A stretch of DNA of 64,000 nucleotides, taken from assembly GCF_900067135.1 (NCBI RefSeq), contig NZ_FJUR01000005.1, positions 138,170-202,169 of the forward strand. The letters run 5' to 3'. The stretch comes from Rhizobium sp. 9140 (lineage in GTDB: Bacteria; Pseudomonadota; Alphaproteobacteria; Rhizobiales; Rhizobiaceae). The notes beneath the pieces are model-generated. The model saw only the letters and a list, made by a program, of their open reading frames with translations, had not been told where the DNA came from and made no database searches. The position numbers were made by a program, and so were the translations under genes. Every line of letters begins with the position of its first letter. Position 1 is the first letter of the stretch. Positions 39,537 through 56,445 of the stretch are shown one piece after another.

Positions 39537-39634
39537 AGTCGGTCGCCCCATTTGGCCCTTGGCGATAGTCCTGCTGTCCGAGACCCGGCATATGCGCTAC
39601 TGGTTTGAGGCGGCGTGGCAACGGGGGGAAGCAC

Positions 39635-42544
39635 ATGACGAAACGTAATGGAGAAACGGGCCCAACTGTTGTCGACGCGGTCCAGCTCGGCCGCATCGAA
39701 GCGACGCATCGCGGTTTTTTGTATCAGCATCTTTATGTTGCAGCGGTTCTTCTGCGCGCCGCCGAGTTCAAGGTTTCGTCTGTGCTGGTCGAGAGCGATG
39801 AGGATCTGGAGATCCTGTCCGACACAGGCCACATCTATGTGCAAGTTAAGCTCCGCGCGGATATCCTGGGCTGGTCGGATATTTCGGATGCGATGGATCG
39901 CTTTGCTTCCTATCGTGCCCTGCATGAGGACGGCACGCGCGCCGGATCCGCGCGTTTTGTCATTGCAAGCAGCGCACCACCGCGACCTTCGCTGATCGAA
40001 CAGATGAACGACCCGGGCTGGCCAGCTGATGTCACGATCGAGTGGCCGGACGGGCGATCCCGGTCCGACAATGTGCTCCCCTGGCCAAGGCCGAATGTGA
40101 TCGACATGGCCGACCATGTCAGAGCCTTGGCCGAACGGCTGCCATTTGCGGTTCTGACACCTGACACGCTGATGTGGAAGCTTGCCGGAGTCGTCACGCT
40201 CGCAGCGGCAGGCCAGCCACCAAGAACCGATCACCAGTTCCGCTCCACCGAGCTGCCGAAACTCTTCGAGCAGTTGGTGATCCAGCTTCAGGACTTTCCA
40301 GCCCCTCCGAGCCCATACCGCGAGCAGGAAGACGAGCCATCTCTGACGGGGCATGGACCGATCAGAATGATTACGGGATATTCCGGTTCGGGCAAAACAT
40401 CGTGGGCAGCGAATGCGGCCCTGCATACGGCAGGCACATTCATCTATTTCGACGCGCAGGACATTCCAGGGGGAGGCCTGGCTGCGGGGCTTGCACGAGA
40501 AGTTGCCGCCCGAATCTATCAGGAGAGCGGAGGCCTGGGTGAGGTGCTTCTGCCCGGCGCGTCCGGCGCGGAGATCCTTCAGTCGATCGGAAGGGAGCAG
40601 ACAGCCGACGAGCCCGTCACGATCGTTTTTGACAATGCACACAAGCCGCCGGCGGCTGATGTGGCGGCATGCATTCGCGCGGCAAAGGGGTTCGGTTTTG
40701 TTCTTCTTGGCCAGCCCGGCCGGAACACACAGGAACTCGCCGCGCTCCTTCAGATCGGCGAAGAAACGCTTGTAGGTTGGTCGGTGGATACGATCGCGGC
40801 GGAAGCTGCATCAAATTCGTGTGTCGCAGATCCGGCATCCTGCCAGATGCTGCTCGACCAGACTGGAGGACTGCCGCTCTACATTCAGAACGCCGTCGAG
40901 ATCGCGAGAACAGAACATGCGGGATCGCTCGCAGAATTCTGCAACAAGCTGGCAGGTCTTGTCCACACAGTCGAGACGGCGCAAGAATTCATTCTTGCTC
41001 ACGTAATCGACGCTCTTCCAGAGACGGCAGGCCGTCTGCTGGCAATTCTCAGCCTGAGCGACATTGCATTGTCCCGTGACGAGGTTGCGGCTTACGCCAA
41101 CGCCGTGTTCGGCACGAACCCGACAGAACTTGCCGCCAGCCTCCGGCGCCTGCGGACAGCAGGTTTGGTGCAGACGTTCGGAAGTGATGCGCTCAAGGCC
41201 CACGATGCGGCGAGACTCGTGGGCCGTAGCCGGCTCCAGGAACTGGGCGATGTCAAAGCTCACACCGCCCGCGTGGCGCTTAAGGATGTTCTCGCAGGTT
41301 CGATCCGGAAGCGATGGGAATACAGAAAGGTCGCACTTTACATCCGGATGCTGGGCGAGGCGGGCGAGATAAAGACGCTCGTGCAGTTCGGAACCGATGA
41401 AGTCTTTCACGAAATGGGCTTGTGGCCAATCATCGAGCCGCATCTGATGGCAGCGGCATTCGCTGACGATGTTGACGCTGAGTCCAGGTTCTGGGCACTG
41501 GATGGCATCGTTTTCAACGAAATGCGCAAACACACAGGCAACCCTCGAAAACACATAGACGAGATGAAGCGCCTGACTGAGCAGTTCGAGCTTGGTGGTG
41601 ACGAGCGCTTGGCTGTGGGAATGAAGGAAATGACACTTCTTGCGCAGGAGGGAGATGCGGAAGGCGCGAAAAGATTGATGAACAGCGTGCGGGCTGGCCT
41701 TCGAAACACACCCGCCCACAGCCGGATCTTTCGTTACAACGTCGCATCTTCAATGTTCTTTCTGGGCGAATACGACGTTGCAGAATCTCAGATCCTGCAG
41801 GTTATGGACGAATATTTCAAACTGCTGGGCATCAGGCCGGAGACGGTTGTCGGTCTCAACCCTCCGCAGCTATATCCCCTCCTGACCAAGACGCCTACTG
41901 TCGAGGACGACATCAAGCACCTCGCCGACTGCCTGGATCTTCTGGCAAAAATCAAGACGGCGCAGGGTCAGATCTCGCCCTTCGCTCGCCTGCACGCCAT
42001 AAAATTTTATGCGATGGCGAACTCGCCCGAATCGTTGATCCGGGTCGGCCAGGACCTCGTCGACGAGTTTATGAACAGACATGACTATATTGGTGCGCGT
42101 GAGATAATTGAAACAAATCTTCTGCCCAATTTGCTGGAACTGAAACTCGCAAGCTACATGATTCCGGTTCGCTCGCACTACGCGGTTGTGCTCGCCTATT
42201 GTGGCGACTTTCCCCGGGCCGACTTGGAAATGGAGAGACTGGCGCCGTACGAAGCCGGTCTCTCCCCACAAGGACGGGCCGAACTCACCGAGCAACGGCG
42301 CATTATCGCGCAGTTAAAGCGCTTCGGGCCTCCGCCCCAGCTGCAGCTTCCCGATAATCTCCAGCAGCGCATGGCGGCCTTTCGAGACTCCATCACCAAC
42401 AATGCCCCGCAAGGCCAACGGACGCGAATTGGCCCTGTGGTTCAGGAAAGAAATACAAGAAATGCCATGGAGGTGGCGGATAGTCCGCGCATCCATGCTA
42501 GGGAAACAGCAGGTCCGACTTCGCCATATCCGTCAGACTCATAA
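39635..42544 (+). CDS. DUF4297-like nuclease / STAND NTPase (putative antiphage protein)
   Basis: This 969-residue protein has three parts. Residues about 15-110 look like a DUF4297/Cap4-type PD-(D/E)XK nuclease: HRGFLYQHLYVAAVLL, then VLVESDEDLEIL and IYVQVKLRAD (E…D…QVK). Residues about 245-460 form a STAND-type NTPase: ITGYSGSGKTSWAANA (Walker A), VTIVFDNAH (Walker B) and GGLPLYIQNAVEIA (GLPL motif). The rest is helical repeat (TPR-like). This is the plan of Avs-type defence proteins, where sensing by the repeats activates the nuclease. The ATG at 39635 has GGGGGGAAG upstream. It follows the nuclease gene by 98 bases. Confidence 0.75.
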   Translation: MTKRNGETGPTVVDAVQLGRIEATHRGFLYQHLYVAAVLLRAAEFKVSSVLVESDEDLEILSDTGHIYVQVKLRADILGWSDISDAMDRFASYRALHEDGTRAGSARFVIASSAPPRPSLIEQMNDPGWPADVTIEWPDGRSRSDNVLPWPRPNVIDMADHVRALAERLPFAVLTPDTLMWKLAGVVTLAAAGQPPRTDHQFRSTELPKLFEQLVIQLQDFPAPPSPYREQEDEPSLTGHGPIRMITGYSGSGKTSWAANAALHTAGTFIYFDAQDIPGGGLAAGLAREVAARIYQESGGLGEVLLPGASGAEILQSIGREQTADEPVTIVFDNAHKPPAADVAACIRAAKGFGFVLLGQPGRNTQELAALLQIGEETLVGWSVDTIAAEAASNSCVADPASCQMLLDQTGGLPLYIQNAVEIARTEHAGSLAEFCNKLAGLVHTVETAQEFILAHVIDALPETAGRLLAILSLSDIALSRDEVAAYANAVFGTNPTELAASLRRLRTAGLVQTFGSDALKAHDAARLVGRSRLQELGDVKAHTARVALKDVLAGSIRKRWEYRKVALYIRMLGEAGEIKTLVQFGTDEVFHEMGLWPIIEPHLMAAAFADDVDAESRFWALDGIVFNEMRKHTGNPRKHIDEMKRLTEQFELGGDERLAVGMKEMTLLAQEGDAEGAKRLMNSVRAGLRNTPAHSRIFRYNVASSMFFLGEYDVAESQILQVMDEYFKLLGIRPETVVGLNPPQLYPLLTKTPTVEDDIKHLADCLDLLAKIKTAQGQISPFARLHAIKFYAMANSPESLIRVGQDLVDEFMNRHDYIGAREIIETNLLPNLLELKLASYMIPVRSHYAVVLAYCGDFPRADLEMERLAPYEAGLSPQGRAELTEQRRIIAQLKRFGPPPQLQLPDNLQQRMAAFRDSITNNAPQGQRTRIGPVVQERNTRNAMEVADSPRIHARETAGPTSPYPSDS

Positions 42545-43595
42545 CGCGGTGTGCCAACGCCCTGTTCTCCGCTGCTGCGCGCGCGAGATGAGCGCCAAGT
42601 TTTGCGAGGTTCGACTTTTGCCGTTCATCGAGAGCAGTCACATCATTTCGGATCTTGGCCGTGTCGGTGAGAACGAGATAATTGAAGAATTTTCCCAGCA
42701 GACCGGCGGTGATATCCGACAGTTGTATCATGGGCTCAAGCTTGGAATCGGAAAATCGAAACGTAATATTGGAAGGAAGAGGGAACGACTGAAACTTCTC
42801 GCGCACCACCTCTTCTACATCGAGGACATGGTCGGACTTTCCCAGGATCGTCAGGCGATGACGGAAGAAGATGTCAAAACCTTCGATGAGAACATGTCCG
42901 TCTTCCGGCGTGCCTTCGATGAATGGAAACTCGTCGCCTTCGGCAGCTGCTTCAAAAAGACCATCCAGCATCTGACCATAAACAGGATGGAGATGGCGAG
43001 CCTGTCGCTGAAGGATTGTTCTCAGGGCTTCGTAAAATCGCGGTCCTTCCTTCGGATCGATGGCCGGGTAATTGAAGGCTCGAAACAGTGACAGCGTGGT
43101 GTTGAAGTCGCGGCGGAGCGCGATGTTCAACATATCCTTCAATGGCGGGAGGACGGGAGCCAAGTCGAACCGGTCCGCTGCCGAAATCGCGCTGTCGACG
43201 ATATCGACGATCGACCAGTAGAGTTGGTCGAGGCATTGGTAGTGGATGAAGAGGCCTTTTGCCTCAATCCAGTCGAGAAAGTCACCAAGACGTTGGGAGC
43301 GCAAGACCTGAATGAAGTCCCCCTTGGCCACGTGGGTGAGCTTGATCTCTGCGGTCGTCGGTTGCAGGTAGAGAACACGCCTTAACTCCTCAATGTCCGG
43401 TACGGCAACGCCGCCGGGGATTGCCACACCCGCCAGCACGAAACAGCCAGGATCTTTGACATTCAAGCCGTTCGCGGTGAAATGCAGCTTTCGATGATTG
43501 TTGGTCTCATCATAATAGAGCGTGTAGACGACATCGGCCCGTTCCAGGCCGTGCATGCGAATTTCCAGATCGCGAAGATCGTCTACGTCTGTCAT
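42498..43595 (-). CDS. DUF3800 domain protein
   Basis: This 365-residue protein has the DUF3800 pattern: VVYTLYYDETNNHRKLHF near residue 20 (paired acidic residues) and IQLSDITAGLLGKF near residue 305. The fold is thought to be RNase H-like with metal-binding acids, and genes of this family often sit in phage-defence and mobile regions. Its 3' end overlaps the end of the convergent STAND gene by 47 bp. The ATG at 43595 overlaps the stop of the small gene upstream, which suggests coupling. The function is unproved. Confidence 0.8.
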   Translation of the reverse strand: MTDVDDLRDLEIRMHGLERADVVYTLYYDETNNHRKLHFTANGLNVKDPGCFVLAGVAIPGGVAVPDIEELRRVLYLQPTTAEIKLTHVAKGDFIQVLRSQRLGDFLDWIEAKGLFIHYQCLDQLYWSIVDIVDSAISAADRFDLAPVLPPLKDMLNIALRRDFNTTLSLFRAFNYPAIDPKEGPRFYEALRTILQRQARHLHPVYGQMLDGLFEAAAEGDEFPFIEGTPEDGHVLIEGFDIFFRHRLTILGKSDHVLDVEEVVREKFQSFPLPSNITFRFSDSKLEPMIQLSDITAGLLGKFFNYLVLTDTAKIRNDVTALDERQKSNLAKLGAHLARAAAENRALAHRVMSLTDMAKSDLLFP

Positions 43596-43777
43596 TCCGT
43601 CAAAACCCCTGTTGCCCGCCGAGCTTGGCGGTCGGCTGCTAGTTTGGCAAGTGCTTTGCACTCGGCGAGAGGATCGTCACCCGAATGGGCGAGACCGCTT
43701 GCGGCTTCGGGCCGCAATGCGGCTAGAGCCGTGCGCCCGCGGCGTCTCGCCCAGATCACGTCAACGAAATGAATCAC
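43592..43777 (-). CDS. small hypothetical protein coupled to the DUF3800 gene
   Basis: A 61-residue frame from GTG 43777 reads IHFVDVIWARRRGRTALAAL…DPLAECKALAKLAADRQARR, basic and helical. Its TGA overlaps the ATG of the DUF3800 gene (ATGA), a common sign of an operon. The ribosome site (AAAGAGCG) is weak and I do not recognise the family. Confidence 0.4.
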   Translation of the reverse strand: MIHFVDVIWARRRGRTALAALRPEAASGLAHSGDDPLAECKALAKLAADRQARRATGVLTE

Positions 43778-45187: not shown

Positions 45188-45946
45188 TCAGCCGGCCTTT
45201 CGGGCGCGGCTTTGGGCGAGACGATAGCTGTCGCCGTTCATCTCGAGGATGCTGACGTGATGGGTGATGCGGTCGAGCAAAGCGCCGGTCAGGCGCTCGG
45301 ACCCCAAGGTTTCCGTCCATTCGTCAAAAGGAAGGTTGCTGGTGATCAGGGTCGCGCCTCGCTCGTATCGTTGCGAGATCAGCTCGAACAGCAATTCCGC
45401 GCCGGTCTTTGACAGCGGCACGAAGCCCAGTTCATCGATGATCAACAGCTGGTAGGCGGCCATCTGCTTCTGGAACCGGATGAGACGCCGCTCGTCGCGC
45501 GCCTCCATCATCTCGCTGACCAGTGCGGCCGCTGTCGTGAACCCAACGGACAGGCCCTTCTGGCAGGCGGCCAGGCCGAGGCCGAGCGCCACATGGGTCT
45601 TGCCCGTGCCGCTGGGGCCGAGAGCGATAACGTTCTCCCTGCGCTCGATCCATTCGCAGCGCGCCAGTTCCAGCACCTGCATCCTGTTCAGCTTTGGGAT
45701 GGCGGCGAAGTCGAAACTGTCGAGGCTTTTGACGACCGGGAACCTGGCCGCCTTGATGCGACGCTCGACCTTGCGACGGTCCCGTTCGATCATCTCCCGC
45801 TCGGCAAGCCGGGTGAGGTATCCGACATGATCGACGCCTTCGGTGGCGCACAGCCGGGCCAGCTTCTGGTACTCGCGCTGGAAACTCGGCAGCTTCAGGG
45901 TTTTGAGATAATGGGTGAGAAGGATCTCGGGTGCTTGGGTGTTCAT
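45188..45946 (-). CDS. istB: IS21 helper ATPase IstB
   Basis: This 252-residue protein starts MNTQAPEILLTHYLKTLKLPSFQREY and has the AAA+ motifs Walker A ALGPSGTGKTHVALGLG (about residue 105) and Walker B LLIIDELGFVPLSKTGAEL. IstB selects targets and activates the IstA transposase. Its ATG overlaps the istA TGA (ATGA), so the two are translated together. Confidence 0.94.
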   Translation of the reverse strand: MNTQAPEILLTHYLKTLKLPSFQREYQKLARLCATEGVDHVGYLTRLAEREMIERDRRKVERRIKAARFPVVKSLDSFDFAAIPKLNRMQVLELARCEWIERRENVIALGPSGTGKTHVALGLGLAACQKGLSVGFTTAAALVSEMMEARDERRLIRFQKQMAAYQLLIIDELGFVPLSKTGAELLFELISQRYERGATLITSNLPFDEWTETLGSERLTGALLDRITHHVSILEMNGDSYRLAQSRARKAG

Positions 45947-47439
45947 GCGACTTCTCCCGCATCCGACGACAGGAGACGCATATACGCCTTCGCCGATGTC
46001 GTCTCGACCGTCGCCCTCGGCAAATACGGGTAGATGGACAGGTCCAGTCTGGGCGGCCGGCGTTCCACCCGGCACAGGATCAGATGCTTGACGGCGTCAA
46101 AGCCAATGGCGCCAAGCTGGATCGCCTGCTTCACCGCCGCATGCAGATCGGCGAGTTCGAAGCTCTCCAGCAGGCGGAGGACCTGCACGTACTCACGCCG
46201 GCCGTGTTTGGCCATGCGGCCTTCCATCAACCGGCGCAGCGTAGCGAACTCTTGCGGCAAGTCCCAGCCCTGGAGGGGCGCTGCCTGATCCAGCGAATTG
46301 ATCTTCTGCTCGATCAGCGGCAGGTAATGGACAGGATCGAAGACGACGTCTTCCCGTTCCCAGCACCGAGGATGGCGGGCGATGATCTCGCCACGGCCAC
46401 CAATGACCACTTCGTTGACATAGCCGCGCACCCACACATCCTGATGGCCATAGGCGACCGGGACGGAATAGTCGTTGGTCTTGTAGCGCACCAGCGACTG
46501 CGCCGTCACCTTGGCACTTGCCTGGTCGCAGGCATCAAATGGCGAGGCTGGCAAGGCGCGCATGGCAGCCAGATCGCGCCGCAAGCGCTCGCCGATCGTC
46601 TCGCTCTCGCCGCGCAGCCTGTCGCGCTGGCGCTTCCGGCACTGCTCCTCCAGAAAGGTGTTGAACGCCTCCCATGTCGCAAACTGCGGGATCGGTACCA
46701 TGAAGTTGCGCCGGGCATAGCCGACGAGACCCTCGACGTTCCCCTTGTCGTTGCCCTTGCCGGGACGGCCATAGCGATCCCGGATAAGGTAGTGGGACAG
46801 GAAGCCGCTGAACAACGTCGCGCGCTTGCGGGTGCCGTCAGGCAAAATCTTCGCCACCAGGCAACGGTCGTTGTCGTAGACGATCGATTGCGGCACGGCG
46901 CCGAAGAAAGCGAACGCATGGACATGGCCATCGACCCAGGCCTCGGCCACTGCCGCCGGATAGGCCCGCACGTAGCAGCCGTCGCTGTGCGGAAGGTCGA
47001 GCACGAAGAAATGCGCCTTCTGCTCGACACCGCCGATGACCACCATCGCCTCACCGAAATCGGCCTGCGCATGGCCGGGCGGATGCGACAGCGGCACGAA
47101 CACTTCCTGGCGGCGCTGATCCCGCTCGCGCATGTAATCCTTGATGATCGTATAGCCGCCAGTGAACCCGCATTCGTCTCGAAGCCGGTCAAACACCCGC
47201 TTGGCCGTATGGCGCTGCTTGCGCGGCACTTGTCTGTCTTCGTCCAGCCAGTGATCGATCGTCGAGACAAACGCATCCAGCTTGGGCCGCCGGATCGGTG
47301 ATTGTCGCTGATAGCCAGGTGGCGTCGAATAGGACAGCATCTTGGAAACGCTGTCGCGCGATATGTTGAAATGCTTTGCAGCCTGACGCCGGCTCATGCC
47401 TTCCGAGCAAGCCAGTCGAACCTTCAGATATAATTCCAC
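45943..47439 (-). CDS. istA: IS21 transposase IstA
   Basis: This 498-residue protein has an N-terminal helix-turn-helix (CSEGMSRRQAAKHFNISRDSVSKML) and an rve-type integrase core with acidic residues in PGHAQADFGEAMV and in FAFFGAVPQSIVYDNDR, and Glu in GNDKGNVEGLVGYARRNF. A C-terminal Mu-type beta domain follows. It cuts and joins the element ends. The gene ends within istB by four bases. Confidence 0.94.
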   Translation of the reverse strand: MELYLKVRLACSEGMSRRQAAKHFNISRDSVSKMLSYSTPPGYQRQSPIRRPKLDAFVSTIDHWLDEDRQVPRKQRHTAKRVFDRLRDECGFTGGYTIIKDYMRERDQRRQEVFVPLSHPPGHAQADFGEAMVVIGGVEQKAHFFVLDLPHSDGCYVRAYPAAVAEAWVDGHVHAFAFFGAVPQSIVYDNDRCLVAKILPDGTRKRATLFSGFLSHYLIRDRYGRPGKGNDKGNVEGLVGYARRNFMVPIPQFATWEAFNTFLEEQCRKRQRDRLRGESETIGERLRRDLAAMRALPASPFDACDQASAKVTAQSLVRYKTNDYSVPVAYGHQDVWVRGYVNEVVIGGRGEIIARHPRCWEREDVVFDPVHYLPLIEQKINSLDQAAPLQGWDLPQEFATLRRLMEGRMAKHGRREYVQVLRLLESFELADLHAAVKQAIQLGAIGFDAVKHLILCRVERRPPRLDLSIYPYLPRATVETTSAKAYMRLLSSDAGEVA

Positions 47440-48026: not shown

Positions 48027-48047
48027 TTGAATAGCGCTGACCATCAT
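47886..48047 (-). CDS. possible 53-residue peptide, divergent from the GntR gene
   Basis: The frame starts with two ATG codons (48047 and 48044) behind GGAGAG, eight bases upstream. It ends AGHKIYMPNYAEIQFLVCVG plus IAA. It overlaps the first codons of the GntR-type gene on the other strand, so it competes with that gene's proposed TTG start. The size and hydrophobic tail would suit a precursor or regulatory peptide, but there is no family match and it may be chance. Confidence 0.3.
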   Translation of the reverse strand: MMVSAIQPDPLSRSKDCKERSAMVEAHNMGAGHKIYMPNYAEIQFLVCVGIAA

Positions 48048-48692
48048 GTGTATCTCTCCATTAGAGAGCAAATCTTCGATGGCAGACTTCCAGCAAACTC
48101 GTTCATCCACATTCAGAGCTTAGCCACATTCCATAAAGTTAGCGCGCTTCCAGTCAGAGAAGCGTTAATCCGTCTCTCGGCGGAAGACCTGGTGGAATAC
48201 AACAGATCGAGAGGCTTTATGCCCTCCCTGATTAGCTTGAATACGCTGGTCGACAGTTATGACATAATTTACCACATCTATCAGCTCAATTTGAGAATAA
48301 ATATAGCAACGAAGCCGGCAGACAATCTACCCGATGATGAAATTATCATGAGCATCGCCGAAGACGAAAACATTACGGCTAGATCTGTTGATGAAGCTTT
48401 GGAGCTTTTTGCGTCTCGACTGCTGAGGGAGCACTTCTATGGTTGCTTTCTTAGAGAGCTGAGGCGCACCCGGCCCTTTCGATTCCAAACTTTTCAACTG
48501 AGGGACGATATCGCTTTGATCGCGGAATATATCCGCGACATGAAGGCGATGGTTATAAATCGCGAGTACGCAAAGATATACAGAACAAACAGAGATTTTC
48601 AAAGGGCCAATATTTCCAAACTGAAAGATAGATACCACTTATTTGTAGAAAACACCCGGAAGAGCCAAGTATATAATACAATTATATCATGA
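48027..48692 (+). CDS. GntR-type transcriptional regulator
   Basis: This 221-residue protein has an N-terminal GntR winged helix (YLSIREQIFDGRLPANSFIHIQSLATFHKVSALPVREALIRLSAEDLVEYNRSRGFMP, residues about 9-66). A helical, FCD-like effector part follows. The start appears to be a TTG at 48027 with AAAGGGGATC upstream; a GTG at 48048 would remove only seven residues. The codon use is clearly more AT-rich than the neighbours. It precedes the GRDP-like genes by 108 bases in the same direction and is the likely local regulator. Confidence 0.75.
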   Translation: MNSADHHVYLSIREQIFDGRLPANSFIHIQSLATFHKVSALPVREALIRLSAEDLVEYNRSRGFMPSLISLNTLVDSYDIIYHIYQLNLRINIATKPADNLPDDEIIMSIAEDENITARSVDEALELFASRLLREHFYGCFLRELRRTRPFRFQTFQLRDDIALIAEYIRDMKAMVINREYAKIYRTNRDFQRANISKLKDRYHLFVENTRKSQVYNTIIS

Positions 48693-48800
48693 TTATATTT
48701 GTTTAATTTCATTAAAATATAGGGATGGCGCTTCTTCCTCTGAGAATCGTGTGTCAAAATCTCCTAGCCACTGAAAAGGTCAGTGAAAAGGAGGAAAGAT

Positions 48801-49403
48801 ATGACCCAGACGCAAATCCCGGGCGAGCAGGCTGTTGCCATGCCACCCCCATCAACCGTTACCTCCCCGGAGAAAGTCAGTTCCGGAGCAATCGCCAGCG
48901 GCCATGCACAGGTTGTTCCCGGTTACGTCGAAGATGCAAGGCGGCGCGCCGAAATGGCAGATCGCTTCACGCTCGAACCGATCCTCGCCCGCTATTGCAA
49001 GGAAGAAGGGCTTTCGATGGAGATCGCGAAGGATCATCGACGCGAAATGTTGCGCTTTCTCGCGCTTTGCGGGACAGCGACACAGCACGGCAAATTCTAC
49101 GGGATGACCGGCGCTGTCGACGAACTTTGGCATACCTTCGTCATCTTCACCCGTGAATATGCTGCTTTCTGCGATGCCGTGGCGGGGAGGTTCCTGCATC
49201 ACGTGCCGGAGGTCGAGGGCCAGATGTCCGCAAACACCTTCGAGCATTACCTCGCCTTCCTCGCCGACTACGAGGCGGTGTTCAATGAGCCGGCTCCTGC
49301 CGCCTACTGGCCGCGGCCCGAGGGCGATCCAGAGTCGGTCGCCTGTAAGGGTTGCAGCGCCTGCAGTAGCTGCGGTGGCGGAGGCTCCTGCACCGTACAC
49401 TGA
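48801..49403 (+). CDS. GRDP-like protein with five-cysteine C-terminal tail (copy 1)
   Basis: This 200-residue protein has a variable N-terminus (residues 1-45) and a helical core resembling the GRDP/DUF1399 family (MTGAVDELWHTFVIFTREYAAFCDAVAGRFLHHVPE, about residues 94-130). It ends with the short tail CKGCSACSSCGGGGSCTVH. The tail looks like a precursor core or metal-binding segment joined to a folded leader. There is no signal peptide. The start at 48801 has a perfect AGGAGG-type site (AAGGAGGAAAGAT). Copy 2 follows 37 bases later, then a glycosyltransferase and an ABC exporter. Confidence 0.75.
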   Translation: MTQTQIPGEQAVAMPPPSTVTSPEKVSSGAIASGHAQVVPGYVEDARRRAEMADRFTLEPILARYCKEEGLSMEIAKDHRREMLRFLALCGTATQHGKFYGMTGAVDELWHTFVIFTREYAAFCDAVAGRFLHHVPEVEGQMSANTFEHYLAFLADYEAVFNEPAPAAYWPRPEGDPESVACKGCSACSSCGGGGSCTVH

Positions 49404-49440
49404 CGACCCCATCGAGTTGAACAAATTAGGAGATGAAACG

Positions 49441-50037
49441 ATGCTTCAAGAAGCGATCGAAGACCGCAATGCTGTCGCCAGCGCCCCGGCTGGAATGCAA
49501 CCTGCTGACGCCGATGCGGCGACAAAGCAAACAGTCGGATATGCTTCAACCATCCCCGACTTTATCAAAGACGCTCGTCGGCGGACCAAAGTTGCCGAGA
49601 GCTTCGCTCTTGAGCCGATCCTTGCTCGCTATTGCAAGGAAGAAGGGCTTTCGATGGAGATCGCGAAGGATCATCGACGCGAAATGTTGCGCTTTCTCGC
49701 GCTTTGCGGGACAGCGACACAGCACGGTAAATTCTACGGAATGACCGGCGCAGTCGACGAACTGTGGCATACCTTCGTCATCTTCACTCGAGAATATGCC
49801 GCTTTCTGCGATGCCGTGGCGGGCCGGTTCCTGCACCATGTGCCGGAGGTCGAAGGCCAGATGTCAGAAGGAACCTTCGAGCACTACCTCGCCTTTCTTA
49901 CTGACTACGAGGAGGTGTTCAACGAGCCGGCTCCTGCCGCCTACTGGCCGCGGCCCGACGGCGACCCGGAATCGGTAGCCTGCAGAGGGTGCAGCGGTTG
50001 CAATAGTTGCTCCGGCCAGAGCTGCACCGTCCATTAA
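49441..50037 (+). CDS. GRDP-like protein with five-cysteine C-terminal tail (copy 2)
   Basis: This 198-residue protein is nearly identical to copy 1 over residues about 55-178 (ALEPILARYCKEEGLSMEIAKDHRREMLRFLALCG… onward). Its first 50 residues differ. The tail is CRGCSGCNSCSGQSCTVH, with the same five cysteines and CTVH ending but different bases between them. The ATG at 49441 has TTAGGAG upstream. The pattern of conserved core and changed N-terminus and tail suggests a tandem duplication with selection on the cysteines. Confidence 0.75.
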   Translation: MLQEAIEDRNAVASAPAGMQPADADAATKQTVGYASTIPDFIKDARRRTKVAESFALEPILARYCKEEGLSMEIAKDHRREMLRFLALCGTATQHGKFYGMTGAVDELWHTFVIFTREYAAFCDAVAGRFLHHVPEVEGQMSEGTFEHYLAFLTDYEEVFNEPAPAAYWPRPDGDPESVACRGCSGCNSCSGQSCTVH

Positions 50038-50106
50038 TCGCCGATGCATTCGCCGAAAGTCCACCTCGGGCGGATAGCCGAGGTGGATCGGCTGAGGAGG
50101 TTTCAA

Positions 50107-51429
50107 ATGCATGTTCTTCTTTTTGGAAAAATTCCACCCATTCAAGGGGGAGTTTCTCGCAGCACGTGGCTAGCCGCCTGTGACTTTCTGGACGCCGGAC
50201 ACTCCATCGACGTCATCACCAATGCGGAGGCGATGGAATATGGGTTTCGCCAGATGACAATGGAAGCTGACGACGAGATAGAAGTCTTTCAGCAGCGAGG
50301 CGGCACAATTCATAATGTCGAGAGCATTCCAACCCAATCATATATCCCCTGGGCGCCTCCGTTTTTAACCCAGATGCTTGGTGCGGGCCTTGAAAGCATC
50401 AAGCGCAAAGTCCCTGATATAATCATCGGCTGGTACTTCGAACCTTACGGCGTCGCGGCATCATTGCTCGGAAGGATGTATAATGTCCCGGTAGTTCTGC
50501 GGCATGCAGGTAGCGATCTGGGCCGACTGCGGAATGTCTCAACCCTGGGCATCGCATATGATGCATTTCTATCGGAGGCCGCGGCCGTGATAACGGGAAA
50601 GAGCGCCCAAACCGAGACTATTTTGAAACAAGCCGGCGTCAGGGACGATGCCGTATTCAGGGCCAAGGGTAGGGCCCTGCACAGATCGTTTTGCGATCCT
50701 TCACAAGTTTTCGACTTGCCCGAGCTCGTCGCCCGGTCGGAGGAGTGGTTCTCGAATTACGGCTTCGATGACGACACCTATCAAAAGCTGATCGCATGGA
50801 ATCGCGCAGGCCTGGAAAGTGATGACCCTGCGATCGGCTCATATGGGAAAATCGCGGAAGTTAAAGGCACTTACAACCTCATCGACGCAATCGACGCTCT
50901 CGCAAGCAAGGGGATCAAGGTATCTTATCGGGCATTATGGAGCGCGACGCCAAAGAGGTTCGCCCATGCGTTCAAATATCTGTCCGAAAGACAGAACATG
51001 CGAGGCCGCTCCATTGTCTTGCCGCCAGTAGCTCCATGGCGGGTGCCAGGATTTATCCGGTCGTGCTCGGCGGTGGCGTTTCTGGAAAATCGTTTCCCAA
51101 TAACATTTCACACTCCACAAGTCCCGCGCGAGGTAATAGCCTGCGGATCCCCCTTAATCCTCAGTGGGGAAATCTATGAGAAGGTGTATTTTGGAAGCCA
51201 ACTCGTGGATCGGGTCAACGTCCTGAAGATCGATGATCCGCAAGACGTCGCGCAATTGGAAAAAGGAATCGCCGATCTGATCGCGAGCTCCGAATTGCGG
51301 CAGTGCCTGATCCATCACAGCAAGGCGCTTTCGCGGGTCCTTGAAGCGCGAGCCCCCATTGGAGATCCTATCGTTGAAATTGCTGAAGGATTGGTTGGCA
51401 ATGAATATCGCTCAGCGGCCGTCGGCTAG
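50107..51429 (+). CDS. family-4-type glycosyltransferase
   Basis: This 440-residue protein has the GT-B fold pattern. The N-terminal start MHVLLFGKIPPIQGGVSRSTWLAACDFLDAGHSIDVIT has the acceptor-side GGV loop. The C-terminal half has a nucleotide-sugar region (GSYGKIAEVKGTYNLIDAIDALA) and PREVIACGSPLILSGEIYEK with the conserved Glu area. The sugar donor and acceptor are unknown. The ATG at 50107 follows GAGGAGG. Its place directly after the two tailed proteins suggests that it modifies them. It overlaps the exporter gene by 29 bases. Confidence 0.8.
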   Translation: MHVLLFGKIPPIQGGVSRSTWLAACDFLDAGHSIDVITNAEAMEYGFRQMTMEADDEIEVFQQRGGTIHNVESIPTQSYIPWAPPFLTQMLGAGLESIKRKVPDIIIGWYFEPYGVAASLLGRMYNVPVVLRHAGSDLGRLRNVSTLGIAYDAFLSEAAAVITGKSAQTETILKQAGVRDDAVFRAKGRALHRSFCDPSQVFDLPELVARSEEWFSNYGFDDDTYQKLIAWNRAGLESDDPAIGSYGKIAEVKGTYNLIDAIDALASKGIKVSYRALWSATPKRFAHAFKYLSERQNMRGRSIVLPPVAPWRVPGFIRSCSAVAFLENRFPITFHTPQVPREVIACGSPLILSGEIYEKVYFGSQLVDRVNVLKIDDPQDVAQLEKGIADLIASSELRQCLIHHSKALSRVLEARAPIGDPIVEIAEGLVGNEYRSAAVG

Positions 51430-53146
51430 TTTATCAGGCTTCGATGAATCTCCAGGGCAAGTCGATCAGAAAGCGGCGGCCAAGGCATTGTTGCGTTCCA
51501 TTGTGGCGCTTCAAAGCAGCCGAACGATATTCGTGTTCCTGTTTCTGAGCATTGTGCTTTCTTTCCTTGCTAGCGTCCTGCTGGCGATCTCGCCGGTTCT
51601 TTTTTCAAAAGCCGTTGACGCGCTCTCGTCGGAAAGCACGGTAACTTCGGGAGCGTTGATTTTTGTCCTGCTCTCCCTAATCGCGCTCGGCATCTCCAAA
51701 TTCCTTACCGAGCAGCGCTGGCTCATCTATCAGCCCGCCGAGAACCGAATACTAAATTCGGTCCGTGAAACCTACCTTCAGCATTTGCTGAATCTTCCGG
51801 TCAGCTTTCATGTCAACCGCTCGATGGGGCGACTTGATTCAATTGTCGGCCAAGGTCTGGCCGGGATTCAAACACTCAGCGGAATGGTGTTTACCCAGCT
51901 TTCTCCGCTAATATTTGAAATCCTCATCACATCGGCCGCTGTCTTCACATTTGTTGATGCTGACATATCCGCAATAATCCTCGCTACGATTGTGTTCTAC
52001 GTTCTCACACTTGTCATTGGTGCCGAATGGGCGAGCAGACGACTAAAAATGGCGTTGAATGTCTCGATTGAGGCCCAAGGCGCGGCCGGCGATGCAATAT
52101 TGAACGCCGAAGGGATAAAGACACTTGTCATCGAAGATGAGATCGTCAGATCATATCGCGAACGATTGCATGATGTTCATCTGCGCTTCCGAAAATTCTA
52201 CTTCAGTCGCGGCTTTCTTGGCATCACCCTATCTGCCGTTCTGCTTTGTGGATTTGCTGCCGCCCTGTGGCTGTCAGCTACGCGGGCTGTATTAGGCGAG
52301 TTGTCCGTCGGCGCTCTCGTCCTGACGAACACCTACATATTGCAGCTTTTCCGAACGATGGAAGGATTTAGTTTTTCGTACCGTGACACCAGGCAGTCCT
52401 TTGAATCTGTTAAACGGTTTCTGGAAGTTTTTGCTGAGGATAGGGATGCGGATCAGCGTTCTCTCGGTCCAGTTGATGCTCTCTCGGCGATTGACATCGA
52501 CAAAGTGAGCTACAAATATCCTGATGGTCGATGGGCGCTCCGTAATGCCAGCTTGCGGGTCGAAAAAGGCAAGATTACTGCTTTGCTTGGGAAATCTGGC
52601 AGCGGAAAATCAACGCTAGTCCGTCTCGTTTTGAAGTCGTTGCCCCTAAGCGAAGGCAATATCCGCGCCAATGGCGTGGATATCAACGAGCTCAACGGTC
52701 TTGAACTTCGTCGAAAGATCGCCGTCGTCCCGCAGGATGCGGTAATGTTTCGCGAAAGCCTTGGTTTCAATATCAGCCTTTCGTCCAACCCCGATCAGAG
52801 GAAGATGGAAGCAGCCGTCAGAGCAGCCGAAATTGCCGATCTTGTTTTGGGCCTCCCTGATGGTTACGACACCGAAATAGGGGAGCGGGGTTTCAAACTA
52901 TCAGGCGGCGAACGCCAACGGCTGGCGATAGCAAGAGCGATTTATCGCGACGCGGACATACTCATTTTTGACGAAGCCACCTCTGCACTGGACGAAAGAA
53001 CGAAGGCTGAGATTTTGAACTTGATCAGGTCGCTGTCCGTCAGCCGGGGGATATTGCTGATAACCCATGATCAGGCGGTGGCGGCAATAGCCGACACCAT
53101 AGTGGCGCTTGATCGTGAGAAGGATCAAAACAGCCTGCCGACCTGA
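51401..53146 (+). CDS. ABC exporter (fused membrane and ATPase domains)
   Basis: This 581-residue half-transporter has a six-helix membrane domain (residues about 40-320, for example TIFVFLFLSIVLSFLASVLLAIS). The ATPase domain has Walker A LLGKSGSGKSTLVRLV, signature KLSGGERQRLAIARAIYR, Walker B ADILIFDEATSALDE and H-loop LLITHDQ. It resembles peptide, lipid or siderophore exporters of the MsbA/HlyB/Atm1 type, but has no N-terminal C39 peptidase, so any leader removal would be done elsewhere. The start overlaps the glycosyltransferase gene. It is the last gene of the cluster. Confidence 0.88.
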   Translation: MNIAQRPSASLSGFDESPGQVDQKAAAKALLRSIVALQSSRTIFVFLFLSIVLSFLASVLLAISPVLFSKAVDALSSESTVTSGALIFVLLSLIALGISKFLTEQRWLIYQPAENRILNSVRETYLQHLLNLPVSFHVNRSMGRLDSIVGQGLAGIQTLSGMVFTQLSPLIFEILITSAAVFTFVDADISAIILATIVFYVLTLVIGAEWASRRLKMALNVSIEAQGAAGDAILNAEGIKTLVIEDEIVRSYRERLHDVHLRFRKFYFSRGFLGITLSAVLLCGFAAALWLSATRAVLGELSVGALVLTNTYILQLFRTMEGFSFSYRDTRQSFESVKRFLEVFAEDRDADQRSLGPVDALSAIDIDKVSYKYPDGRWALRNASLRVEKGKITALLGKSGSGKSTLVRLVLKSLPLSEGNIRANGVDINELNGLELRRKIAVVPQDAVMFRESLGFNISLSSNPDQRKMEAAVRAAEIADLVLGLPDGYDTEIGERGFKLSGGERQRLAIARAIYRDADILIFDEATSALDERTKAEILNLIRSLSVSRGILLITHDQAVAAIADTIVALDREKDQNSLPT

Positions 53147-53158
53147 CGCGATCTCTCA

Positions 53159-53514
53159 ATGATCCGCGTAAGTTATGCTCGCGTCAGCTCGAGCGCCTCA
53201 AGGCAGCGGGTTGCGAAATTATTCAATCCGAAACAGTCTTTGGCGCATTGCGAGACGGGCGCACTGAACTGGAAACCGTTCTCCAGTTTCTCCGCACGGG
53301 TGACGAGCTTGTCGTTTTACGTCTCGACATCCTCGGGCGATCAACGCGCGACGTGCTCAATCGGCTCCACGAACTGGACTGCAAGGGTGCGTCACTGCGG
53401 GTTCTTGAGCCGCAAGTCTCAACGGCCGGAGATGGCGGACAGCTCGTTATCACGATCCTTGGCATGGTCGCGGATATGGAGCTGCGGTTCATGAAGGATC
53501 GGCAACGACGTTGA
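53159..53514 (+). pseudogene. serine recombinase remnant
   Basis: The start MIRVSYARVS is the resolvase N-terminus. After a small deletion with frame change near 53188, the frame continues QLERLKAAGCEIIQSETVFG…LRLDILGRSTRDVLNRLHELD…MVADMELRFMKDRQRR and stops at 53512. The C-terminal DNA-binding part is missing because the direct-repeat block starting at 53509 replaces it. Confidence 0.8.
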
Positions 53515-54388
53515 AAGGAGCGGGCTCGACGCCCTTTACCGGCTTTCTCAAGGCGACCGGTTGGCCCCGCCCTGGCGGCGGGGCCTGCAGGTCTCAGTCG
53601 CGGTTCGGGCGGGACCAGATCAGCTGGTAGCCATCCTCACCTTCCACCTCGCTCAGCGTGGCGTAGATCGGGGCGGGGAAGCTCGGATCGTCGAGCTTGA
53701 CCGAGAGGTAGTCGCGGTCGCTCTCGCTGGAGCGCTTCTGCCAGGCGGCGCCGAGTTCAACGGAGCCGGCGAAGATGCGGAACTGCGGGCCTTTGTCCGA
53801 GGGGTTCTCGATGCGGGCGATGCGAGCCTTGACGTTGAGAGCGAGGGTGCGGATCGAACCGGTGAAACCGTTTTCGGTGGAGGTGAAGGTGCCGATGGTA
53901 GCCATTGTCATATTCCTTTTTTGCTGTTTCGGGCCGCTCCATTGCGGCCTCGATGGCAGTCGCAAAGGCCGGGGACGATCGGACCGCACCCAAAGGGCCG
54001 GAACAGCGTGGAGGGGGGCGCGGAGACACTTTCTTGTTTCGCGAGGAATGGCGGCGTGAGCCGGCAGGGGATGAAAGTTTTGCAGAGCCGTTGCGGGATC
54101 AAGAGCGAGGCGAAGCCGTTCTCCGGTCAGACCTGCCCCATCGAGCCCGCCTATGGAGCCCCTCCCAAACGGAGAAGGGATATGACGATGGCGAACCGCA
54201 CAGTGCAATCCCCAGCAAATGGCTCCGGCGGGTTGCAGCATCTGCCAGAGCTACTGTGAAGTTTTGCACACTCGTTGCAGACCATCGGCCAGGCTCTGCT
54301 TGCAACAATCGTCGTGTCATAAAGTTGCCAGTGACCGGCCGCCTGGAGCAAAAAGCATCAGCATGCCGTCCGTCTTCGTTGGGATCAG
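53509..54388 (+). repeat. direct repeat, copy 1 (DUF736 block)
   Basis: About 880 bp align with 55565-56445 in the same orientation. The first 650 bp are almost identical; the rest drifts, with several substitutions and small indels. Each copy carries a DUF736 gene on the minus strand. The two copies flank a 1.2-kb segment with a NUDIX gene and a small gene. Confidence 0.9.
53594..53905 (-). CDS. DUF736 family protein (copy 1)
   Basis: This 103-residue protein starts [29 protein letters not shown] and contains [24 protein letters not shown] and [22 protein letters not shown], the DUF736 pattern frequent on rhizobial plasmids. Its function is not known. GGA lies eight bases before the ATG at 53905; a second ATG six bases upstream is too close to it. 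The protein is the same as the copy at 55650. Confidence 0.88.
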
Positions 54389-54523: not shown

Positions 54524-55009
54524 ATGACTGATATCCCCATCCGTTGTTTTGCCGTCTCGGTTGTCGTTCTCCGTGTAGTCAACGACGAAACGAAGGTCTT
54601 GTTACTTCGTCGAAACCACACTTTGATTGGAGAGTGGTGTCAGGTAGCTGGCGCCATAGAGAGCGGCGAAAAAGCCTGGGAGGCAGCCCTCAGAGAAGTG
54701 AGGGAAGAGACGGGCTTGATCTGCGACAGCCTCTATTCGGCTGATATCTGCGAGCAATTCTATGAAGCTGATCGCGACGCTATATGTATGCTGCCTGTTT
54801 TTGTTGGGTTCGCGAACGGCGAAGCGCCCGTTGTTCTCAATGAGGAACATAGCGAATTTTGCTGGGTGCCATTTGAAACTGCGATCAGCCTGGTGCCTTT
54901 CGCAGGGCAGCGTCACGTTCTAAGACATATCCAAGCCGAGTTCGCTGAAAAACAGCCGCTTCGGCATCTTCTTATCGATATGTTGCCGCCGGCCCAGCCT
55001 GAGACATGA
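54524..55009 (+). CDS. NUDIX hydrolase
   Basis: This 161-residue protein has the NUDIX box GAIESGEKAWEAALREVREE followed by TGL (Gx5Ex7REUxEExGU), near residues 44-66, that binds metal and cleaves nucleoside diphosphate derivatives. The remainder fits a single-domain hydrolase. GGAG lies about 10 bases before the ATG. The substrate is unknown. It is located between the two DUF736 repeat copies. Confidence 0.9.
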   Translation: MTDIPIRCFAVSVVVLRVVNDETKVLLLRRNHTLIGEWCQVAGAIESGEKAWEAALREVREETGLICDSLYSADICEQFYEADRDAICMLPVFVGFANGEAPVVLNEEHSEFCWVPFETAISLVPFAGQRHVLRHIQAEFAEKQPLRHLLIDMLPPAQPET

Positions 55010-55194: not shown

Positions 55195-55564
55195 GTTGAT
55201 CGTCTCCTTTTTGATGACGTCAACGGGGCGACGTGCGCACGAAGCCCGGGTCAAGGAGCGCGAAGCGACCGCCAGCGGCGGCGAGTGGGGTGCCGGTTTT
55301 GTCGGAGCGCAGGGAACCGGAGCGGAGGCAAAATCGGGGGCCCACGCTGTCCTTTAGGCGGGCTGAGAAGCCGTAAAGTAGGACGGCAGAAAGAAGAGAA
55401 CCCGCGTCACGACCAGGGACGCGACCGTACTCCGTAAGGCGCTGTCTTCTGGTGATGTCGATAACAGTAAGTACCTCCTCGATACTTTGGAGGTTTTACA
55501 GTTATTCTCGAAACCCTCACGGCACGGGCAACTCCCGCTTTGGTTTCCAGACCTTCGGAAACGG
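55195..55564. other. intergenic, no convincing gene
   Basis: About 370 bp upstream of the small helical gene and before repeat copy 2. It contains the inverted repeat at 55467-55499. Open frames across it lack ribosome sites. Confidence 0.45.
55467..55499. promoter_or_regulatory. imperfect inverted repeat
   Basis: GTAAGTACCTCC (55467-55478) pairs with GGAGGTTTTAC (55489-55499) across a 10-base spacer. It may be an operator or a hairpin; no gene start is directly attached. Confidence 0.4.
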
Positions 55565-56445
55565 CGTTGAAAGGAGCGGGCTGGACGCCCTTTACCGGCT
55601 TTCTCAAGGCGACCGGTTGGCCCCGCCCTGGCGGCGGGGCCTGCAGGTCTCAGTCGCGGTTCGGGCGGGACCAGATCAGCTGGTAGCCATCCTCACCTTC
55701 CACCTCGCTCAGCGTGGCGTAGATCGGGGCGGGGAAGCTCGGATCGTCGAGCTTGACCGAGAGGTAGTCGCGGTCGCTCTCGCTGGAGCGCTTCTGCCAG
55801 GCGGCGCCGAGTTCAACGGAGCCGGCGAAGATGCGGAACTGCGGGCCTTTGTCCGAGGGGTTCTCGATGCGGGCGATGCGAGCCTTGACGTTGAGAGCGA
55901 GGGTGCGGATCGAACCGGTGAAACCGTTTTCGGTGGAGGTGAAGGTGCCGATGGTAGCCATTGTCATATTCCTTTTTTGCTGTTTCGGGCCGCTCCATTG
56001 CGGCCTCGATGGCAGTCGCAAAGGCCAGGGACGATCGGACCGCACCCAAAGGGCCGGAACAGCGTGGAGGGCGGCGCGGAGACACTTTCTTGTTTCGCGA
56101 GGAATGGCGGCGTGAGCCGGCAGGGGATGAAAGTTTTGCAGAGCCGTTGCGGGATCAAGAGCGAGGCGAAGCCGTTCTCCGGTCAGACCTGCCCCATCGA
56201 GCCCGCCTATGGAGCCCCTTCCAAACGGGAAAAGGAATATGACGATGGCGAACCGCCATAATGCAAATCCCCAGCAAATGGCCCGGCGGGTTGCAGCCTC
56301 TGCAAAAGCCACCGTAAAGACTTGCACACTCGTTGCAGACCATCGGCCAGGCTCCGCTTGCAACAATCGTCCTGTCGCAGAGGTGCCTGTGACCTGCCGC
56401 CTGGAGCAAAAGCATCAGGATGCCGTCCGTCTATCGTGGGGATCA
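55565..56445 (+). repeat. direct repeat, copy 2 (DUF736 block)
   Basis: Partner of 53509-54388, offset 2056 bp in the first part. In this copy the small plus-strand frame at the end stays open, while in copy 1 it is closed by a frame change. Confidence 0.9.
55650..55961 (-). CDS. DUF736 family protein (copy 2)
   Basis: This 103-residue protein is identical to the copy at 53594 in every residue I compared, with the same ribosome-site arrangement before the ATG at 55961. Two identical copies 2 kb apart indicate a recent duplication or gene conversion. Confidence 0.88.

Follow-up and report, generated by a model that had tools for sequence, protein, structure and literature searches.

A conserved Rhizobium operon encoding Cys-tailed GRDP proteins, a GT4-like glycosyltransferase and an ABC exporter as a candidate RiPP-like system

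Results

Organisation of the operon

During our analysis of a 64,000-nucleotide stretch of DNA from Rhizobium sp. 9140 (NZ_FJUR01000005.1, positions 138,170 to 202,169 of the forward strand; hereafter the window, which is part of contig C5 of the 5.43-Mb genome) we examined an operon of five co-directional genes that encode, in order, a GntR-family regulator, two similar proteins (GRDP1 and GRDP2), a GT4-like glycosyltransferase (GT) and a fused ATP-binding cassette (ABC) exporter (Table 1). An earlier note on this DNA had described these genes, and its coordinates and spacings were confirmed: gaps of 108, 37 and 69 bases separate the first four genes in turn, and the GT and ABC genes overlap by 29 bases. 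The two GRDP proteins are 75% identical and, as the note had stated, both finish in Gly/Ser tails with five cysteines; the GT-B glycosyltransferase and fused exporter that it recognised are likewise borne out, by a GT-B-like model and by matches to ABC_membrane (2.7e-26) and ABC_tran (2e-30).

Table 1. Genes of the operon and their proposed core peptides, in positions of the window (TMD, transmembrane domain; NBD, nucleotide-binding domain; aa, amino acids)
Feature	Coordinates	Strand	Details
GntR-family regulator	48027..48692	+	TTG start; PF00392 E=3e-12
GRDP1	48801..49403	+	ATG start, 200 aa; ~180-aa GRDP-type helical domain and tail CKGCSACSSCGGGGSCTVH
GRDP1 Cys/Gly tail, proposed core peptide	49344..49400	+	residues 182-200
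GRDP2	49441..50037	+	ATG start, 198 aa; paralogue of GRDP1, tail CRGCSGCNSCSGQSCTVH
GRDP2 Cys/Gly tail, proposed second core peptide	49981..50034	+	residues 181-198
GT4-like (GT-B) glycosyltransferase	50107..51429	+	ATG start; GAGGAG upstream
Fused ABC exporter (TMD+NBD)	51401..53146	+	ATG start; PF00664 and PF00005

The winged-helix domain of the regulator is well supported (46.5 bits for PF00392 against a cut-off of 27), and its start in the CFBP6625 plasmid annotation lies 27 nt earlier than the TTG start used here. A Pfam scan of the exporter did not reveal a C39 peptidase domain (PF03412), and no HlyD-like gene was seen in the operon in either the list of open reading frames (ORFs) or the Pfam scan. 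PF05114 (MNIO) has no match in the five operon proteins or in two downstream proteins scanned, and further sugar or polymer genes were found neither among the scanned operon proteins nor, by eye, among the ORFs of 48.0-53.1 kb.

Cys tails and the GRDP domain

Among the 25 close relatives that form rows 1-25 of alignment A1 (36 rows in all), each of the five tail Cys columns is occupied by Cys in 23-25 sequences. Averaged over pairs, their identity amounts to 63% for the tail, compared with 26% for the N-terminal 55 residues and 66% for residues 56–178. Because the Cys columns are conserved and tail identity is far above that of the N-terminus, the Cys tail is, on this alignment, not a product of chance. 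The identity between GRDP1 and GRDP2 is itself unevenly spread. Codons 60–140 contain 14 synonymous and no non-synonymous changes, with an identical run of 101 nt, and the N-terminal 54 aligned codons contain 38 non-synonymous changes; residues 179–200 show five non-synonymous changes in 21 codons together with one gap, all Cys being kept. This pattern of divergence fits a GRDP domain that has been homogenised while two distinct tails were maintained. The tails fall into two types, A (..CGxGGSCTVH) and B (..CxGxSCTVH), and the A/B pair is seen again in P0015 with P0021 and in P0018 with P0026, the members of each pair lying on contigs of equal size; Roseibium has a single GRDP. An AlphaFold model of GRDP1, built on the 36-row alignment, is all-helical with a mean predicted local distance difference test score (pLDDT) of 77. 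Ten-residue means are 82–97 over residues 41–130, 95 and 93 over 151–170, and 45 and 35 in the tail, where residues 183-200 are below 50 and the chain is predicted to be disordered. A search of solved structures returned no convincing PDB relative of the GRDP model.

Neither GRDP protein has a Pfam or NCBIfam match at E<=1. The label 'GRDP-like (PF07173)' given by the earlier note applies only loosely: GRDP1 and GRDP2 gave no match to the local PF07173 model (which matched likewise in 0/14 control genomes), but all 64 GRDP relatives listed are annotated in advance with the domain PF27765.1, an entry that our local Pfam copy does not include, and seven of them carry the NCBI name 'glycine-rich domain-containing protein'. 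Across 170 GRDP domains we observed a near-invariant signature, D-x2-W-H-x5-T-x2-Y-x3-C-x4-G-x3-H-H-x-P, with conservation of 99, 100, 97, 100, 96, 95 and 99% for D, W, H, Y, C, H and H, respectively; the motif D, W, H, Y, C, G, H, H, P as a whole is conserved at 95–100% (168–169 of the 170 rows hold a residue there). Such conservation would suit a catalytic or metal-binding site better than a passive leader. The family was encountered in Pseudomonadota, Actinomycetota, Bacillota and Bacteroidota, and the domain is also found without a tail. Matches are rare, with 26/397 genomes in the order, 24/385 in the class and 29/398 in the phylum, in samples that overlap and contain the window's own genome.

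Some lone GRDPs end in near-identical one-Cys repeats, namely (TAYCAGPHIGK)n in L165 (4772-7138), (MCGGMLKED)n in L134 (4881-5600) and (ALCVPSKE)n in L139 (4219-4731). Short GRDPs with a single near-C-terminal Cys (..AMCIS, ..SSICW, ..ASSCS, ..SAICSR and ..AAFCS) are found in L128, L132, L138 and L140.

Conservation of the gene set

It is near certain that the operon represents a conserved unit. Two Roseibium loci (L001 and L002) encode GntR, GRDP, GT and ABC proteins in the same order, with identities of 34, 62-70, 54 and 53-54%, respectively, and the 34% identical GntR homologue occupies the same place in both; these are the two loci with the full order among six with GRDP relatives on genome contigs. 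When plasmids were searched with the GT, three records were obtained and all three have an adjacent GRDP match. A plasmid of R. gallicum (pRgalIE4872c; L010, 7836-9814) encodes a GRDP and a GT, with no exporter, inside a nif region, and a further locus (L107) retains remnants of a GRDP, a GT and an ABC gene, the first two in pieces.

Linkage of the three genes was scored more widely by equal contig size between the protein-search lists, which hold one longest contig per 90% cluster and ABC matches to 1e-100 only; the score reflects linkage, not adjacency. Requiring E<1e-20 and a contig of 5 kb or more leaves 26 GRDP matches on 24 distinct contigs, and 14 of these contigs also carry a GT and/or an ABC gene (nine both by list, one both by annotation, this being the window/CFBP6625 plasmid, three ABC only and one GT only). 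From the GT side, 10 of 21 relatives (at least 49% identity, contig at least 5 kb, among the best 120 of 148 matches) share a contig size with a GRDP match, one of them being Roseibium L002. Size matching undercounts linkage, so that absence is not readable from it; P0029, for example, has no size match, yet its end resembles that of the GT-adjoining GRDP of R. gallicum. The locus tags of Rhizobium sp. RHZ02, IB244_01585 (GRDP) and IB244_01595 (GT), are two steps apart.

The glycosyltransferase and its relatives

The GT matches GT4-like Pfam domains with E-values of 5e-6 to 4e-3, every one under the curated cut-offs, and members of its subfamily share the N-terminal consensus MRILxxGKxPPIQGGVS. 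Its model (pLDDT 93.8) is closest in the PDB to MshA/BshA (Foldseek E about 5e-18 to 1e-15), and WaaG, PimB' and HepE are also on the Foldseek list; the modelled likeness to MshA/BshA does not decide the acceptor. In P0123 this GT is fused to a tail-less GRDP domain. Precomputed annotation places a PqqD domain on six of the best 120 of 148 GT relatives, of which NCBI names two 'PqqD family peptide modification chaperone'; on rescanning, these two (P0157 from Corallococcus and P0165 from Hyalangium) pass the Pfam cut-off, and P0139 and P0173 match below it. P0157 and P0165 belong to the same GT subfamily (35-36% identity) and are fused to this peptide-binding chaperone domain in place of GRDP. 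PqqD-type domains are described as recognition elements (RREs) of ribosomally synthesised and post-translationally modified peptides (RiPPs), with RRE fusions to PF00535 glycosyltransferases, in the portion of PMC12710340 consulted. Finally, at locus L215 (5654-8796) the GT follows genes for a Cys peptide of 59 residues, an enzyme of the MNIO type (PF05114, E=4.5e-73) and an unknown protein; this is possibly a glycosylated MNIO RiPP cluster. Tail-less GRDPs are encoded on a separate contig (L214) of that genome. The GRDP fusion, the PqqD fusions and the MNIO neighbour together tie the GT subfamily to peptides. The GT itself is scarce: within the class of genome G1288, which to judge by gene content is probably Gammaproteobacteria, it is found (E<=1e-50) in 1/166 genomes, the one with L215.

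Tails and separate Cys peptides

Tail-less GRDPs are in several cases preceded by small Cys peptides. A strict screen required a peptide of 22–65 residues with an upstream motif like a ribosome-binding site (RBS) and at least two Cys in its last 22 residues, encoded on the same strand and no more than 160 nt upstream. Such peptides were found for 12/45 tail-less, 1/20 intermediate and 0/49 tailed GRDPs and for 17/973 control genes, and the counts are the same with a uniform start rule for GRDP and control genes. Fisher tests for the tail-less GRDPs give p=3.6e-10 against the control and 6e-5 against the tailed proteins, values that overstate the strength of the difference because the screen was tightened after the cases had been seen and several of the positives share a genus or genome. 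A wider screen, allowing overlaps up to 130 nt, gave 14/45, 1/20, 1/49 and 24/973, respectively. Since the peptides lie beside tail-less but not tailed GRDPs, the fused tail and the separate Cys peptide seem to replace each other.

In four genomes of genus g627 (L150 and L193–L195), peptides of 42–55 residues with a double-glycine motif and a Cys-rich core, REEAFCFELCFEFCLSICFDD, mostly in tandem, are encoded together with tail-less GRDPs (one or two per locus), HlyD and an ABC exporter of the C39 type (L193, 5634-11047; domain searches confirm both HlyD and C39 in each of the four). A second double-glycine type, SGGNVADDGICIGHQFCE, is found beyond the operon in L193 and L194, with a similar one in L195, and L196 also combines a double-glycine Cys peptide with a GRDP. 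In the family of g627 a GRDP match occurs in only 5/96 genomes besides the query's own. Two further genomes encode tail-less GRDPs behind peptides of 26–40 residues such as MKEKIIKKIVRGKVLKKSKGWCGPGTCVG and MKSQLIKKIIEIKIQQNANSKCAQCKHGCHPVPCAGQCGV, and L214 has a similar small peptide between its two GRDPs. In the tree, a clade of peptide-linked tail-less GRDPs (support 0.98) includes both the GT fusion P0123 and a tailed Escherichia coli protein; such a mixture would be expected if a separate substrate could turn into a fused tail, or the reverse.

An Aureibacter plasmid (Bacteroidota; L180, 6765-8391) encodes, in this order, a peptide of 33 residues (..GHCSNCGHCSASF), a tail-less GRDP, an unknown protein of 310 residues and a TonB receptor. 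This peptide was not counted in the strict screen, as it has no clear RBS.

Other GRDP neighbourhoods

Plasmids of E. coli of about 7.9 kb, represented by pHUSEC41-3 (L009, 376-3592), encode a tailed GRDP (..VCGCSGKGCGAGCSCNSR), a fused ABC exporter which like that of the window has no C39 match, and a JmjC_2 enzyme (E=3.3e-21) with MINA, NO66 and YxbC as PDB relatives. The JmjC enzyme replaces the GT, and the GRDP is 33% identical to its counterpart over 94 residues. At least 80% of this three-gene stretch is present in 29/5,426 E. coli genomes, always on plasmids; any match is found in 88/5,426, many of them just a 200-base piece. The set is a candidate peptide system whose host is tractable, and its small plasmids should make for quick testability. 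Elsewhere a GRDP is accompanied by JmjC (L103), by a small Cys ORF, an ABC gene and two TauD oxygenases (L118, tail-less), by an ABC gene (L143), or by a Cys peptide with a divergent ABC exporter (L220).

Discussion

We suggest that the locus makes a ribosomal peptide product. Each GRDP protein would unite a precursor with the domain that matures or recognises it, comprising a helical domain of about 180 residues and a Cys/Gly/Ser core of 18-19 residues. The GRDP domain would present, and perhaps chemically alter, the core cysteines, the GT4 enzyme would glycosylate a tail residue (Ser, Thr or Cys), and the ABC protein would export the tail, or the tailed protein. The two paralogues with A and B tails could then give a two-component product in this member of the clade. 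We consider the balance even on whether this whole picture, with the tail as core and GRDP as the maturation domain fused to it, is correct. A substrate of the peptide type is likely; modification of the tail and its kind, tail release, export and bioactivity are what we infer from the gene set. The earlier note had likewise proposed a modified and exported tail, a view to which the conserved unit, the peptide-tied GT relatives and the alternation of tail and peptide lend partial support. We differ over the large domain, which that note took for an unusually large leader. It is unlikely that GRDP is only a leader, because of its conserved D-W-H-Y-C-H-H residues and its existence without a tail; the polar signature, the tail-less GRDPs beside Cys peptides and the tail-less GRDP fused to a GT all point to an active or recognition domain.

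The GRDP protein, a member of a widespread family, resembles a hitherto undescribed factor of peptide maturation. A broader proposal, which we offer tentatively and with more doubt than confidence, is that GRDP constitutes an unrecognised family of Cys-peptide maturation enzymes, probably metal-dependent through the conserved D/H/C/H/H residues, acting on separate tiny Cys peptides or on their own tails. Many of the bacterial proteins named 'glycine-rich domain-containing protein' would then modify themselves and be the precursors of a new class of RiPPs, glycosylated here by the GT4 subfamily and tailored elsewhere by JmjC/TauD oxygenases. If true, this would give a function to a family so far known by that name alone, provide a new class marker for mining genomes for ribosomal peptides, and add both a logic in which maturation is fused to the precursor and a peptide glycosyltransferase of the GT4 type.

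With a gene-encoded putative precursor whose core is conserved, adjoined by a candidate tailoring enzyme and an exporter, the operon resembles RiPP systems in general, and we class it as a RiPP-like system working like a glycosylated RiPP with a fused precursor. The literature searched yielded no description of a GRDP–GT–ABC system. The kinship to glycocins suggested by the earlier note is not sustained. Glycocins share with the operon a glycosyltransferase, an ABC exporter and a Cys/Gly/Ser-rich peptide, but the glycosyltransferases of sublancin and glycocin F are presumably of the GT2 type, whereas the operon enzyme is a GT4-like GT-B protein and there is no GT2-type (GT-A) S/O-glycosyltransferase. 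The operon also has no short double-glycine precursor, its tails being joined to a ~180-residue domain and not preceded by a GG site, and its exporter has no C39 domain; we excluded a glycocin on these grounds. Borosins, in which an N-methyltransferase is fused to its own core, likewise combine a large N-terminal domain and a C-terminal core in one chain, with related forms that have the domain in trans. They are defined by an S-adenosylmethionine-dependent N-methyltransferase domain in the precursor, and GRDP1 and GRDP2, in contrast, have no methyltransferase match in Pfam or NCBIfam at E<=1, their modelled fold being all-helical and unlike any solved structure to a convincing degree. MNIO RiPPs such as the bufferins have Cys-containing precursors, as here, according to the portion of PMC12452194 consulted, and the MNIO enzyme of L215 adjoins the same GT subfamily, but the five operon proteins do not match PF05114. 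Borosin and MNIO RiPP were accordingly both rejected.

Several observations weigh against the reading of the tail as a core peptide. Four of the six GRDP loci on genome contigs (L003-L006), in which neither a GT nor an ABC gene accompanies the GRDP, and the R. gallicum locus lack part of the gene set, and a protease gene was not seen in the operon. By size matching, with its undercount, 10 of the 24 close-GRDP contigs have no GT or ABC match and 11 of the 21 listed GT relatives share no contig size with a GRDP match, although two of the 11 share one with an ABC match alone (30145 and 161801). In the loci read, 46/51 tailed GRDP ORFs have no such GT within 5 kb; the other five belong to four loci, two of them from Roseibium. 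An ABC match lies near 6/51, or 5/51 exporters once the ABC-F-like protein of L157, which is not exporter-like, is set aside. With so few tailed GRDPs near a GT or an ABC gene, the Cys tail alone is not predictive of the operon. The co-occurrence that the earlier note had proposed as a check thus gives a divided result: 14/24 contigs of the close clade carry one or both partners, and in the wider family few tailed proteins adjoin them. As regards the peptide screen, its criteria were tightened after loci had been seen, and 33/45 tail-less GRDPs are without such a Cys peptide. The positives come from few lineages, with six of 12 in one genus and three in one genome; two of the 12 differ between the two start rules (L104 and a gene of L194 under one, L142 and L144 under the other), and several may be ORFs that arose by chance. 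With looser criteria the screen gave 34/48 tail-less and 25/50 tailed GRDPs and 468/991 control genes.

An unlikely alternative is that the GRDP protein keeps its Cys tail permanently, as a segment for metal binding or redox chemistry like that of a metallochaperone or buffer, with the GT and ABC proteins serving an unrelated glycan or lipid. Cys/Gly tails are indeed common in stand-alone GRDPs without a GT or ABC gene, some of which have likely membrane segments, and the GRDP domain itself has conserved His, Cys and Asp residues. The GT-GRDP fusion, the GTs beside MNIO or fused to PqqD, and the mutual exclusion of tail and separate Cys peptide in the strict screen argue the other way, as does the predicted disorder of the tail. 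We find it distinctly improbable that the whole GRDP is a type I secretion substrate whose C-terminal tail signals export or anchoring, and that the GT glycosylates this protein. A peptidase-less fused exporter directly downstream would suit this role, and type I secretion permeases are among the top NCBIfam scores, well below cut-offs; however, tail-less GRDPs also adjoin ABC exporters, several with a separate Cys peptide, and a HlyD-like gene was not seen in the operon.

GT4 and fused ABC pairs are common in polysaccharide and glycolipid loci. That the pair here forms a surface polysaccharide or glycolipid pathway, with the GRDP genes as passengers on a plasmid cargo island, is very improbable: WaaG, PimB' and HepE on the Foldseek list, the exporter-less GRDP and GT pair among nif genes and the 11/21 listed GT relatives without a GRDP match on a contig of equal size speak for it, but no other sugar gene was seen in the operon, the GT has peptide-linked relatives, and the GRDP gene is adjacent in 3/3 plasmid records found by GT. 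The Roseibium GRDPs provide no independent evidence here because those loci were found through GRDP.

Genomic setting

Plasmid pAtCFBP6625a of Agrobacterium tumefaciens matches the window, and the five operon proteins are 100% identical and in the same order. The G+C content over 47.5–53 kb, 47–59%, is lower than that upstream (60–64%) and overlaps that downstream (55–62%). An IS21-like istA/istB pair (45188–47439) immediately precedes the GntR gene; it shows an IstB match to PF01695 (E=1.7e-73) and a Mu-type transposase C domain. The ABC gene is immediately followed by a truncated resolvase (53143–53514 in the plasmid annotation; PF00239 E=8.5e-17 on 53248–53514). Bounded in this way, the operon region looks like plasmid cargo.

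Further upstream, at 39605-43661, a P-loop protein of 979 residues (GYSGSGKTS, identified by eye) is convergent with a protein of 387 residues (42498-43661), for which Pfam gave no match at E<=1e-6. Downstream of the operon a stretch with a DUF736 gene (PF05284) occurs twice, at 53499-54353 and 55555-56411, with 300 nt at 99% and 155 nt at 82% identity, and the two copies bracket a NUDIX gene (54524-55009).

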